From Sphingobium sp. (GTDB taxonomy: Bacteria; Pseudomonadota; Alphaproteobacteria; Sphingomonadales; Sphingomonadaceae): 64,000 nt of DNA. Below the pieces are notes generated by a model, which was given only the letters and a program-made list of their open reading frames with translations, was not told the origin of the DNA and did not search any database. Both the position numbers and the translations under genes were made by a program. The DNA lies in assembly GCA_035196065.1 (NCBI GenBank), contig CP136575.1:2954769-3018768 (forward strand), written 5' to 3'. This document shows, piece after piece, positions 47,761 through 51,362 of this stretch (position 1 is the first letter of the stretch; every line of letters starts with the position of its first letter).

Positions 47761-48555
47761 ATGAACCTCAATTCACTCTTTGGACTTGAAGGCCGCGTTG
47801 CCTTGGTCACCGGCGGATCGCGCGGAATTGGCGCGATGATCGTTGAAGGCTATCTCGCCGCCGGTATCGAGCGCGTCTATATCAGCGCGCGCAAGGTTGA
47901 TCAGGTCGAGGCAGCTATTGCCCGTTTTGGCCCCAAAGTTATCGGCCTGCCCATGGATATCTCCACCGTAGAGGGATGCCGTGCGCTTGCCGCAGAGATC
48001 GGCGCACGGGAGGAAAAACTCGACATCTTGGTCAACAATGCCGGTGCCGCCTGGGGAGAGCCTTATGAAAGCTTTGGCGAATCGGGTTGGGACAAGGTGA
48101 TGGACCTCAACGTCAAATCGCTCTTCTTCCTTACCCAGGCACTGACCCCCAAGTTGAAGGCTGCGGGCAGTTTCGACCGTCCGGCCAAGGTGATCAATAT
48201 TGCGTCGATCGACGGGCTGAAGATCAATCCCTGGGAAACCTATAGCTATCAGGCATCAAAGGCCGCAGTCATTCACCTCACGCGGCGGCTGGCGGCCGAG
48301 TTGGCACGTCAGAATGTGCTGGTGTCTGGAATTGCACCGGGTGCATTTCAGTCGGATATGAACAAGGCTGCCCGCGATTTCGGCGACCAGGTTGGTAAGA
48401 ATATCCCCTTCCCGCGCATCGGTACGACCGAAGACATGGCGGGTCTTGCCATCTTCCTGGCCGCGCGTTCGGGCGATTATATTGTTGGAGAAACAATAGC
48501 TTGTGACGGCGGCATCGTGAATGCATCGCTGCCCGGAAACACCATCGAGGCCTGA
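47761..48555 (+). CDS. Short-chain dehydrogenase/reductase
   Basis: A 264-residue SDR: TGGSRGIGAMIVEGYLAAG, NNAGAAWG, NIASIDG and YSYQASKAAV. SARKVDQ suggests NADP use. It resembles RhlG/FabG-like reductases. ATG at 47761 is set by TGGAG with a six-base spacer; an ATG four codons upstream overlaps that site. It ends the plus-strand ACAD-ACAD-SDR operon. Confidence 0.9.
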   Translation: MNLNSLFGLEGRVALVTGGSRGIGAMIVEGYLAAGIERVYISARKVDQVEAAIARFGPKVIGLPMDISTVEGCRALAAEIGAREEKLDILVNNAGAAWGEPYESFGESGWDKVMDLNVKSLFFLTQALTPKLKAAGSFDRPAKVINIASIDGLKINPWETYSYQASKAAVIHLTRRLAAELARQNVLVSGIAPGAFQSDMNKAARDFGDQVGKNIPFPRIGTTEDMAGLAIFLAARSGDYIVGETIACDGGIVNASLPGNTIEA

Positions 48556-48570: not shown

Positions 48571-48590
48571 GAAAGCGCAATCAGGCCCAG

Positions 48591-48605
48591 TTGCACGTTA
48601 TGCAA
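48591..48605. promoter_or_regulatory. LysR-type binding palindrome, distal copy
   Basis: TTGCA-CGTTA-TGCAA, same half-sites as the copy at 50456-50470, and exactly 21 bases before TTGCACAATAAA. It contains a T-N11-A core. It is nested in a longer perfect inverted repeat (GCCCAGTTGCA and TGCAACTGGGC, 48585-48611), which could also be a hairpin ending the SDR transcript. Confidence 0.5.
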
Positions 48606-48626
48606 CTGGGCAAATTGTTTTCGCAA

Positions 48627-48655
48627 TTGCACAATAAACGTTGGGCGACCAAATG
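48627..48655 (+). promoter_or_regulatory. Promoter of candidate small RNA 1
   Basis: -35 TTGCAC (48627-48632), 17 bases, then CAAATG (48650-48655) as a poor -10. The block TTCGCA-N-TTGCACAATAAA is the same as at the other promoter (50486-50503), in identical register with the upstream palindrome. The -10 alone would not be convincing. Confidence 0.4.
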
Positions 48656-48661
48656 GCTCTC

Positions 48662-48770
48662 AACGGAAACGATACTTTCCAAATTTGACGGGCCGGGCAC
48701 TCTCCTCCTCCTCTCCCCGCCCGCCCGTTGATACGAAGCGGCCTTCACGCTCAGCGTGAAGGCCGTATTC
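48662..48770 (+). ncRNA. Candidate small RNA 1 with CU-rich segment
   Basis: About 105 bases from the predicted start to a 12-pair perfect hairpin (48739-48750 with 48754-48765, loop TCA) followed by TATTCGTTT. In the middle is CTCTCCTCCTCCTCTCC, a strong anti-Shine-Dalgarno sequence of the kind found in loops of alphaproteobacterial regulatory RNAs. It shares ACTTTCC and CTCTCC words with small RNA 2. No reasonable protein reading frame covers it. Boundaries are predicted. Confidence 0.38.
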
Positions 48771-48859
48771 GTTTGTGCGATTGTTTCCCGGTATCGTACG
48801 AAGATTCCGCTGGCGTGAAACGCCGCAGCTTATGCTCCAACATATCCACCGCAAACCGG

Positions 48860-49265
48860 TCCTCCTGTGGATAAGTTGCGTAAATCCTGTTGTGCGACTC
48901 AGTCATGGATGAGAGCTTTGTCTTGTCAGGCAGAGACGCCGAAGCGCAAAGCGGATTGGAAACAGGAAGCTAAGCACTGCGGAAAAACTGCAGGATACCT
49001 CGCCGGATTGCTTCAGAAGCGCAAGCGGAAGAAACAGGAAAAGCAGAGGTTGCTGCTGGACAACGAACGTCAAGTGCGGGCCAAGGCCTCACCGCCAAAG
49101 CCAACGCCGGGCGGGATAGCAAAAGCAGTCAGGCAAACCGGCGTTCCTTCGGGATCGCCGGGGAGCCGGACGCCAGAAACCGGAAAGAATGGCCCTAGCG
49201 GCCAAGGACTTCCAATATCAGGCGCAGTGGGCGCTGGCAGCGATGCCAGCGCCCATTATCGTTTG
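48860..49265 (+). ncRNA. Structured non-coding stretch, possible third RNA
   Basis: About 400 bases without a credible protein. It holds an imperfect 26-base direct repeat (48944-48970 and 49019-49044, core AAACAGGAA), a stem CCGGCG...CGCCGG capped by a UUCG tetraloop near 49138-49161, and at 49228-49255 a perfect 12-pair stem with GCGA loop followed by TTATCGTTT, a plausible terminator. A 22-codon frame from ATG 48905 ends at TAA 48971. A long plus-strand frame through here runs antisense to lysR and has no protein-like character. I cannot match it to tmRNA, RNase P, SRP or 6S RNA. 49266-49478 shows nothing I can name. Confidence 0.3.
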
Positions 49266-49478
49266 AGAGGCCCAATGGCCCGACATATTGGCCGCAGCCA
49301 AAGCTGCCAGCCGCCCTCATCATTTCGATACTGCAATAATCTTGCCGGCGTGATGCGCGTCACGCTCCGAATCAACCGGTTCCTGCCAAAACTGGCTCGC
49401 GACCCGGTTGGCGCGGATCTCCCTGCGTCAACATCCTGCCGGGGGCGGAATGTGCAAACATTCCGTTCCTCGGCTTTT

Positions 49479-50354
49479 TTATACTGCGGATTTAAGCAGC
49501 CAATCGTGGAAGATGCGCACCGCGCGTTGTTTCAATGCGCGCGGCCGGCACACGAACCAATAGCTGTAAGGGCTTTCAACCTCGATATCGAAGAGACGCA
49601 CGAGCCGCGGATCTCTGGCGTCGGACAAATGGCTGCCGTGCATGATTGCGACGCCCAGCCCGTTCGCCGCAGCTTCCAGCATCAACTGTCCACTGTCGAT
49701 ATGGTCAATCGCGGCAGGTTTCAGTCGGGGTGCACCAATAGCCTGTCGCCAGGCGTCAAAGACCAGCGGCATATCGCTATGGACCAGAACAGTCTGGTTC
49801 GCGAGGTCGGACGGGTGCTGCAGCTTCTGCTCACGCGCCAGTGTTTCCGATGCGATAGCATAGACGGTGTTGCGGTCGAGCCGTACCGAATACAAGCGCG
49901 GATCAACCTGATCGGCAATGATGATCGCCGCATCCACCACGTCACCCAGCAGATTTTCTGCATGGGCAGAGGTATCGAGATCGATATGCAATTTGGGGAA
50001 CAGCTTGCGCAATTCCGGCAAGCGGGGGATCAGGCGCTGCGAACCGAACAGAGGCAACAATCCCAAACGCAGGCGATATTCACCGCCCTGCCCGGACAAT
50101 TCATCAACCGCCTCTGCCAGCGATTCCAGCGCGGGTTCGATAGCCTTCAACAAAGCCGCACCGTCGGAGTTCAAGATCATCGCCTGTGCCTTGCGGTCGA
50201 ACAGCGGCTTACCCATGAAATCTTCAAGCGCCTTGATCCGTCGGCTGAGCGCCGGGGGCGAAAGCCCGAGTTCGGAAGCAGCCGCCTTTGCTGAACCCAG
50301 CTTGGCGATACGGACAAAGGCTTCGAGCGAGCGAAGGGGCGGAAGACGGCGCAT
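49479..50354 (-). CDS. LysR-type transcriptional regulator
   Basis: A 291-residue regulator. The helix-turn-helix is at about 5-60 (LRSLEAFVRIAKLGSAKAAAS, LSPPALSRRIKALED), followed by the linker helix and an effector domain (LRLGLLPLFGSQRLIPRLPEL). The overall pattern is GcvA-like. The ATG at 50354 has no clear ribosome site. Its upstream gap carries a perfect LysR-type palindrome and a divergent promoter that leads to a terminator, not to a protein. The nearest protein genes on either side (SDR, GST) are not divergent from it, so its target is probably the small RNAs. Confidence 0.93.
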   Translation of the reverse strand: MRRLPPLRSLEAFVRIAKLGSAKAAASELGLSPPALSRRIKALEDFMGKPLFDRKAQAMILNSDGAALLKAIEPALESLAEAVDELSGQGGEYRLRLGLLPLFGSQRLIPRLPELRKLFPKLHIDLDTSAHAENLLGDVVDAAIIIADQVDPRLYSVRLDRNTVYAIASETLAREQKLQHPSDLANQTVLVHSDMPLVFDAWRQAIGAPRLKPAAIDHIDSGQLMLEAAANGLGVAIMHGSHLSDARDPRLVRLFDIEVESPYSYWFVCRPRALKQRAVRIFHDWLLKSAV

Positions 50355-50455: not shown

Positions 50456-50470
50456 TTGCAAAATTTGCAA
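50456..50470. promoter_or_regulatory. LysR-type binding palindrome, proximal copy
   Basis: TTGCA-AAATT-TGCAA is a perfect 15-base palindrome containing T-N11-A. It lies about 100 bases upstream of lysR and centred about 64 bases before the predicted start of small RNA 2, the usual recognition-site position for LysR proteins. Its half-sites equal those at 48591-48605. Confidence 0.65.
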
Positions 50471-50491
50471 TCAAAAAAATTTTGTTCGCAC

Positions 50492-50520
50492 TTGCACAAT
50501 AAATTCAGACGGCCCATATA
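50492..50520 (+). promoter_or_regulatory. Promoter of candidate small RNA 2
   Basis: -35 TTGCAC (50492-50497), 17 bases, -10 CATATA (50515-50520). It begins 21 bases after the palindrome and includes TTGCACAATAAA, shared with 48627-48638. Start predicted near 50527. Confidence 0.55.
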
Positions 50521-50526
50521 GGCGGG

Positions 50527-50590
50527 GCCTTACAGGCATCCTCTCCTAAAGACTTTCCGAGGCTGGTGGTTTCCACCGGCCTCTTTTTTT
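50527..50590 (+). ncRNA. Candidate small RNA 2, divergent from lysR
   Basis: About 64 bases between the promoter and an intrinsic terminator. Contains CATCCTCTCC, a pyrimidine-rich segment able to pair with ribosome sites, and ACTTTCC, also present in small RNA 1. There is no start codon with a ribosome site. The terminator works only for plus-strand transcription and no plus-strand protein gene lies between lysR and 51861, which makes a short transcript the simplest explanation. Confidence 0.58.
50559..50590 (+). terminator. Intrinsic terminator of small RNA 2
   Basis: An 11-pair stem (GAGGCTGGTGG with CCACCGGCCTC, one G-T pair) around TTT, followed by seven T. On the minus strand there is no T-run, so it is directional. 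Confidence 0.9.
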
Positions 50591-50690
50591 GCCTGTTGCC
50601 TCGCCCTTCCCGACTTGTCGAAACTATCAGGCGCTTTGTGCTGATCGTCGTTCCGAGCCTCAAAGGCAGCGCGCGGCGCGGCGGATGGAA

Positions 50691-51362
50691 CTAGAAATCG
50701 ACCTGCTCATAATAGGGGGGAGGCGTTATGCTCTCCATCCGCTCTGATAGCAGCGGGCGGAAACTGGGCCGGCTCTTGAACATCGAATACCAGCTTTTGG
50801 TCTGTTCATGCCCGCTCCAGTCGATACCGCCGAGATAATCCGCGACTGAAATCTGGGCCGCTGCTGCAAGATCGGCCATGCTCATCGTCGGACCCGCCAT
50901 CCAGGCACGGTGATCGATCAGATAATCGATATAATCCAGATGCCCATTAGCGAGGCGCATCGCTTCGCGCAGCACATTGCTGTCTGGCGGCTGACGATGG
51001 ACGATCCGCTTCTTCATCCGTTCATGCAACAAGGGCGCCGTCACATCTCCAAAGAACTGCTGGTCGAACCAGGCAACCAGCCGGCGGATTTCGGCGCGAT
51101 AGGCGGTCGAACCGCTGATCATCGGCGCAGTGTCGCTGATTTCCTCAATATATTCGCCAATAGCGACCGAATCAGCAAGCGTCAGGTTGCGCGCAGGATC
51201 GATCAAAACGGGCGTACGCGCCGCCGGATTCATGTACAGAAAATCGTCCCTATGTTCCCAGGGGTTTTCGCGCACCAGACTGTAAGCGATGCCCTTCTCC
51301 CCCATTTGCAAGCGCACCTTGCGCGAAAAGGGACAAAGCGGGAATTGCAGGAGTTGCCACAT
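50691..51362 (-). CDS. Glutathione S-transferase family protein
   Basis: A 223-residue GST. The N-terminal thioredoxin-like domain has LCPFSRKVRLQMGEKGI (a CPFS motif, Cys10-type) and the cis-Pro/Ser GSH site RTPVLID...ADSVAIGEYI. The helical domain from about 90 contains MSMADLAAAAQISVADYLG. Substrate unknown. AGGGCAGTC precedes the ATG. It is a single gene with no obvious link to lysR, which is 337 bases away and in the same orientation. Confidence 0.9.
   Translation of the reverse strand: MWQLLQFPLCPFSRKVRLQMGEKGIAYSLVRENPWEHRDDFLYMNPAARTPVLIDPARNLTLADSVAIGEYIEEISDTAPMISGSTAYRAEIRRLVAWFDQQFFGDVTAPLLHERMKKRIVHRQPPDSNVLREAMRLANGHLDYIDYLIDHRAWMAGPTMSMADLAAAAQISVADYLGGIDWSGHEQTKSWYSMFKSRPSFRPLLSERMESITPPPYYEQVDF

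Follow-up and report, generated by a model that had tools for sequence, protein, structure and literature searches.

A stem of 11 base pairs followed by seven T stands on the plus strand of the window (the whole stretch of DNA that was analysed, 64,000 nucleotides), beside a lysR gene read in the opposite direction. What RNA would end there, and what would switch it on? Judged by its sequence, the RNA at 50527-50590 (+) belongs to the known SuhB family, to which it adds a new member, and it is present once in the genome. Our reading of the locus, to which we give a probability of nearly four in five, is that the promoter module of this small RNA is read by the divergent LysR protein or its orthologue, that the RNA pairs with the ribosome-binding sites of target mRNAs, and that a second RNA, for which we coin the name RNA2, is under the same operator.

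The SuhB RNA and its neighbourhood

The features of the RNA and the adjacent regulator gene are the following.

50527-50590, plus strand: SuhB (RF00519) small RNA; counted from its inferred start through the last T of the run, it measures about 64 nt (cmscan and fold)
50527-50537, plus strand: weak 5' hairpin GCCU-UAC-AGGC (fold; near-invariant in an alignment of 28 sequences, the window's own included)
50537-50546, plus strand: CAUCCUCUCC stretch, presumed seed for Shine-Dalgarno regions (unpaired in the fold except for its first base)
50559-50590, plus strand: intrinsic terminator, 11-pair stem and seven T (sequence, terminator scan and fold)
49479-50354, minus strand: gene of a LysR-type regulator of 291 aa (GcvA is the closest NCBIfam model, with a score under the cut-off)

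A cmscan search with Rfam placed RF00519 (suhB/MmgR, alphar8; "Makes More Granules Regulator RNA") at 50520-50597 (+) with 49.4 bits against a curated cut-off of 41 (E = 3.8e-7 in 64 kb), covering model positions 1-77 of 77, and this was the sole match in its own 3.02-Mb genome. The earlier note had described an orphan transcript exposing CCTCTCC and divergent from lysR. The description holds except for the word orphan, since the match exceeds the curated cut-off of a family with published members; sequence, fold and Rfam agree on a short RNA gene with an intrinsic terminator. In searches run with stricter filters, RF00519 was matched at E <= 0.001 in 103 of 119 genomes of the bacterial family (95 over the cut-off), and 40 of 45 genomes of the genus had a match (16 over the cut-off). 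We inspected 60 suhB loci, 30 from the same genus and 30 from other genera; the best-scoring loci were taken, so this sample is skewed to good matches.

The three traits of the RF00519/alphar8 family are all present: the weak 5' hairpin, an unpaired C/U-rich core of about 10 nt, and the intrinsic terminator. The 64-nt RNA folds with -26.2 kcal/mol (z = -4.86), and none of 200 shuffles was as good. The form CAU[C/U]CUCUC was kept in 60/60 loci, with U in one (L163), which together with the fold bears out the exposed pyrimidine-rich stretch. The alphar8 letters UUUCCUCCCU are not kept in the core of the window's suhB, where 5/10 positions agree in the Rfam alignment; the core is still C/U-rich and unpaired. 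The terminator stem (50559-50583) has 11 pairs, 8 of them G-C, and a loop of 3, followed by the T run at 50584-50590, and the terminator scan reported it on the plus strand only, as the earlier note had said. In the 7-kb stretch that was scanned, the number of terminator-like sites was 18, compared with 8.6 +/- 2.5 for shuffled sequence; the suhB terminator stood second in the list.

Known relatives help to place this RNA. SuhB of Sphingopyxis granuli TFA, a sphingomonad RNA that shares its name with the Rfam family of our RNA and is likened to ours by name and description, is reported as a 61-nt trans-encoded RNA that binds the 5' UTR of thnR and reduces translation in an Hfq-dependent manner, with a higher expression at high growth rate; the available portion of that report does not mention control by a LysR operator, as opposed to the module described below (PMC6563040). 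In Caulobacter crescentus, the alphar8 RNAs SisA-D are described in the available text with the same layout as the window's SuhB, a weak hairpin, an unpaired C/U stretch and a terminator, and Hfq helps their interactions (PMC12559287). Their core differs from the one found here (5/10 positions agree in the Rfam alignment), and sisA lies beside a gene for N-formylglutamate amidohydrolase whereas suhB lies here beside lysR (PMC12559287).

The protein of that lysR gene scored 188.5 bits with GcvA (NF008352), under the curated cut-off of 288, and its best solved structure by sequence is 8y6u, titled glycine cleavage system transcriptional activator. suhB was divergent from a related lysR in 30/30 loci of the genus, in keeping with the arrangement first noted here, and in 3/30 loci of other genera, with 121-185 nt between the two; in one locus (L151) lysR is truncated by the contig end. 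On the other side of suhB, 50691-51362 (-) encodes an FzlA-like protein (249.9 bits, below the cut-off of 300). Upstream, the last accepted plus-strand protein gene, an SDR gene, ends at 48555, so that the absence of any such gene from there to suhB is confirmed. Plus-strand ORFs between 48555 and 50527 were taken as mechanical, the longest being mostly antisense to lysR. The same interval contains a second conserved plus-strand noncoding element (48656-48772), which is RNA2. A stretch at 48780-49478, in which no gene was recognised, ends in a plus-strand terminator-like stem with a T run (49441-49470), beside the lysR 3' end. With a possible feedback of SuhB on lysR in view, duplexes between SuhB and the lysR leader were computed; their energies ran from -4.9 to -19.8 over the 60 loci (L001 and L200 being one and the same gene), values obtained without a shuffle control and of a kind that any Shine-Dalgarno may give.

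The palindrome-element module and LysR

Three features precede the RNA.

50456-50470, plus strand: palindrome TTGCA-N5-TGCAA (T-N11-A form), presumed LysR recognition site, centred at about -64
50485-50496, plus strand: conserved element TTCGCACTTGCA, presumed LysR activation site, overlapping the -35
50492-50520, plus strand: promoter with -35 TTGCAC (50492-50497), a 17-nt spacer and -10 CATATA (50515-50520), the -35 lying inside the conserved element

The -35/-10 pair with 17-base spacing proposed before is present as TTGCAC-N17-CATATA, and 38 nt separate the -10 from the terminator stem. It matches 6/12 positions of the sigma-70 consensus by manual count, and the promoter scan did not report it; the consensus was therefore dropped as evidence, and the promoter is credible because it is conserved. 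The element TTCGCANTTGC was found upstream of the RNA in 56/60 loci. When the scan was free to choose the best palindrome anywhere 110-50 nt before the RNA and the element was allowed a looser form, the palindrome began exactly 29 nt before the element in 55/60 loci (29/30 in the genus and 26/30 elsewhere). In the 26 loci of other genera, 21 palindromes had at least 9/10 positions and 5 had 7-8. The five loci without the 29-nt spacing were L138, in which the palindrome is present and the element degenerate, and L006, L008, L018 and L021. Relative to the inferred RNA start, the palindrome centre lies near -64 and the element near -35. LysR proteins recognise sites of the T-N11-A form, and a recognition site near -65 with an activation site near -35 is their usual layout.

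One may ask whether the hairpin is a mere terminator of a longer plus-strand transcript begun further upstream. RNA2 does lie upstream of suhB on the same strand, and terminators can serve read-through transcripts too. Against this, conservation with the RNA family extends to the 5' hairpin and the CU stretch that precede the terminator, and the promoter module keeps a fixed distance from suhB, which makes the longer transcript a very improbable account.

How specific is the module? When up to two mismatches are allowed, the 19-base stretch before suhB has a single further copy in the genome, at a distance of 1.9 kb; allowing three adds a third place. For the full module (palindrome and element at 29 nt), a search of the 3.02 Mb at up to three mismatches returned three sites: those of RNA2 (0 mismatches), of suhB (0) and a third with two, which is possibly a member of the same set. 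This third site (L169, G000:C1:1324104) precedes a 23-residue ORF, MEKLFSLVASLMLSTMLFSVTIV, followed by a gene that we take for rpsL.

The four Caulobacter alphar8 RNAs have no common upstream motif in the portion of the report that was available (PMC12559287), whereas suhB here has this strict module; the module is thus, as far as seen, a feature of the present bacterial family. An orthologue of LysR (48-100% identity) was found in 97 of the 119 family genomes. It was counted as absent in 22: 20 gave no match at 1e-40, and G012 and G085 contained only a relative of 34-36%. suhB was matched in 97/97 genomes with the orthologue and in 6/22 without it; five of these six had best E values of 3.6e-6 to 1.1e-4, and the sixth, G093, 2.3e-11. 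The module, at up to two mismatches anywhere in the genome, was present in 90/97 genomes with LysR (absent at that stringency in the other 7) and in 2/22 without. These two were G093 and G099, the G099 site standing before a suhB match that, with 35.3 bits, falls short of the cut-off. Among the 90, the sole module site of G019 (L271) looks coding. The reversed module pattern was found in 0/119 genomes. Fisher values for the co-occurrence, 3e-15 and 7e-15, ignore relatedness and overstate independence, because the 22 genomes without LysR may represent a small number of clades. Among the matches listed, lysR lies within 500 nt of suhB in only 38 of the 97 genomes, a lower bound, so linkage alone does not explain the co-occurrence.

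These same data bear on another explanation, in which SuhB is real and the module is the site of some other regulator, or a basal form of sphingomonad promoter, with lysR a neighbour by history only. That lysR adjoins suhB in only 38/97 genomes among the matches listed would fit such a history, as would the module in G093 and G099, where no LysR orthologue was detected. The difference between LysR-bearing and LysR-less genomes argues the other way, and a basal promoter would be common, yet the genome has just the three full-module sites. We consider this explanation unlikely, and prefer to see the module as read by LysR.

There are precedents for LysR-type control of such small RNAs. According to the available part of one report, the LysR protein LsrB of Sinorhizobium meliloti activates the alphar14 RNA NfeR1, and LsrB offers a precedent with AbcR1 as well (PMC10746234). 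The LysR-type protein VtlR of Agrobacterium tumefaciens is described in the available text as binding three promoter regions, including those of the small RNAs AbcR1 and VrsA (PMC7486931). Its box, GCAT-N3-TG-N3-T (PMC7486931), differs from the TTGCA-N5-TGCAA found here. The VtlR box had 10 matches in the window, none of them between 47756 and 52095.

RNA2, a second noncoding element

RNA2 lies 1.9 kb from suhB, between the SDR gene and lysR, with the following features.

48591-48605, plus strand: palindrome TTGCA-N5-TGCAA before RNA2, 0 mismatches
48620-48631, plus strand: element TTCGCAATTGCA before RNA2, 29 nt from the palindrome start
48656-48772, plus strand: RNA2, noncoding, three hairpins (covariance model R1, covariation and fold)
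48700-48718, plus strand: CUCUCCUCCUCCUCUCCCC loop of RNA2, presumed anti-Shine-Dalgarno stretch (sequence, fold and alignment)
48738-48766, plus strand: 3' hairpin of RNA2, resembling a terminator although its T tract is imperfect (terminator scan)

The palindrome sits within a terminator-like stem (48585-48611) that follows the SDR gene. The fold of 48650-48780 has a z value of -5.42. RNAalifold gave 23 pairs, 12 of them with both sides changed. The covariation score was 0.349, against 0.197 +/- 0.019 in 500 shuffles, none of which reached it; slid versions of the structure scored at most 0.095, but a structure derived from the consensus can be expected to outdo this control. By another covariation measure, 61/500 shuffles had at least as many further pair types.

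Model R1, built from 13 sequences without promoter bases, found RNA2 in 43 of the 45 genus genomes, its own 13 included. The module at 29 nt was present in 30/30 RNA2 loci examined, 29 by script and L194 by reading; 20 of these loci came from genomes outside the model, and 10 from genomes whose RNA2 had first been obtained with the element or with a DNA query containing it. In several relatives (for example G160 and G163) suhB and RNA2 are on separate contigs or far apart, so the shared module is not a mere by-product of their adjacency. In the family sample R1 matched in 8/119 genomes: its own, G068 (of the genus, with the module) and six weak ones elsewhere. The six weak matches (28.5-35.7 bits) were rejected as RNA2 outside the genus, none having the module upstream; a scan of these loci at 15/20 positions returned one distant site (L231).

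Might RNA2 be a form of NfeR1? The two share a C/U-rich anti-Shine-Dalgarno stretch in a hairpin loop, as far as the available part of the NfeR1 report describes it (PMC10746234). The alphar14 layout, however, has three hairpins each exposing CCUCCUCCC, and of the three hairpins of RNA2 one has a CU-rich loop; the score with RF02344 was 18.6 bits against a cut-off of 58.8, and RNA2 was not assigned to that family. Among the matches listed, no published description of the module, of its tie to LysR or of RNA2 was recognised by title or abstract opening, in a literature coverage with subscription journals mostly outside it. The operator, its LysR tie and the second RNA are apparently new, and RNA2 apparently undescribed so far.

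Proposed mechanism and other module sites

How could these parts work together? The divergent LysR, or its orthologue located elsewhere in genera that have the two genes apart, would bind two sites, TTGCA-N5-TGCAA (near -64) and TTCGCANTTGC (near -35). We infer that it binds there in the host and that, once bound, it would activate rather than repress transcription, the promoter itself being a poor match to the consensus. SuhB would then pair through CAUCCUCUCC, probably with Hfq, with the ribosome-binding sites of presumed target mRNAs and lower their translation, and the same operator would drive RNA2, with its CU-rich loop, in this genus. With this operator in front of both suhB and RNA2, a single regulator would control two anti-Shine-Dalgarno RNAs together. 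The pairing idea of the earlier note fits, because TFA SuhB is reported, in the portion of the paper available, to bind an mRNA leader with Hfq (PMC6563040). The genome has an Hfq gene of its own (L279, G000:C1:2095056-2095490; two Hfq matches in what is apparently one 168-codon frame). It is on the reported behaviour of TFA SuhB and on this gene that we base our proposal, in which SuhB and RNA2 would be synthesised under LysR control and then pair with Shine-Dalgarno regions. The module points to a candidate regulator, offers an operator that can be tested and predicts a second RNA under the same control.

In other genera the module also stands before UrcA-family genes, tiny ORFs and CU-loop RNAs. 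Across the family genomes, a script found 45 module sites in 39 regions that had no listed suhB beside them, among the matches listed and apart from one site opposite a suhB site. NCBIfam searches with 14 proteins from module regions placed nine in the UrcA family (TIGR04433) above the cut-off (7/10 and 2/4); the five others were two tiny ORFs, one L244 protein and one small protein each from L273 and L274. Among the loci in which the module is followed by tiny hydrophobic ORFs are L242, L248, L249, L258 and L266; in L247, L250, L252 and L256 the tiny ORFs behind it have a different pattern. This grouping was made by eye and sorts part of the 45 sites. C/U-rich tracts with a mean unpaired probability of at least 0.88, a measure taken without shuffle control, follow the module in L240, L241, L245, L262 and L263 and stand ahead of a tiny ORF in L244 and L250. 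In L259, L260 and L264 the module is followed by suhB or suhB-like RNAs. At least six sites (L267, L270 and L275-L278) fall within long open frames and seem to be there by chance.

With tiny ORFs behind module sites of other genera, one could suppose that the RNA at suhB, too, acts mainly by encoding a small protein and not by pairing. The conservation of suhB is located in the 5' hairpin and the CU stretch, and the 64 nt contain neither ATG nor TTG, the single GTG (50566) lying within the terminator stem; we give the coding alternative next to no credence. Pairing of SuhB with ribosome-binding sites is the reading that we retain.

It is tempting to speculate, and we lean modestly towards the idea, that across the Sphingomonadaceae one GcvA-like LysR commands a regulon via TTGCA-N5-TGCAA-N14-TTCGCANTTGC, and that this regulon includes UrcA-family proteins and tiny proteins of two sorts (about 23-32 residues) as well as SuhB and CU-loop RNAs that, like RNA2, are specific to a lineage. 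Whenever the regulator is on, many mRNAs for catabolism or uptake would then be silenced by the RNA arm; if this is true, such silencing could explain the response of SuhB to growth rate.

Some further arrangements were observed among the module sites. L244, L247, L250 and L256 have two or three sites each per approximately 0.4-1.2 kb, mostly before UrcA or tiny ORFs. In L240 and L241 the noncoding DNA after the module contains more than one CU-rich stretch, in an alphar14-like layout; a search for alphar14 there gave no Rfam match at E <= 1. In two genomes, module-like sites (18/20; L269 and L272) precede genes whose products contain a CxxCH haem motif, which may be chance.
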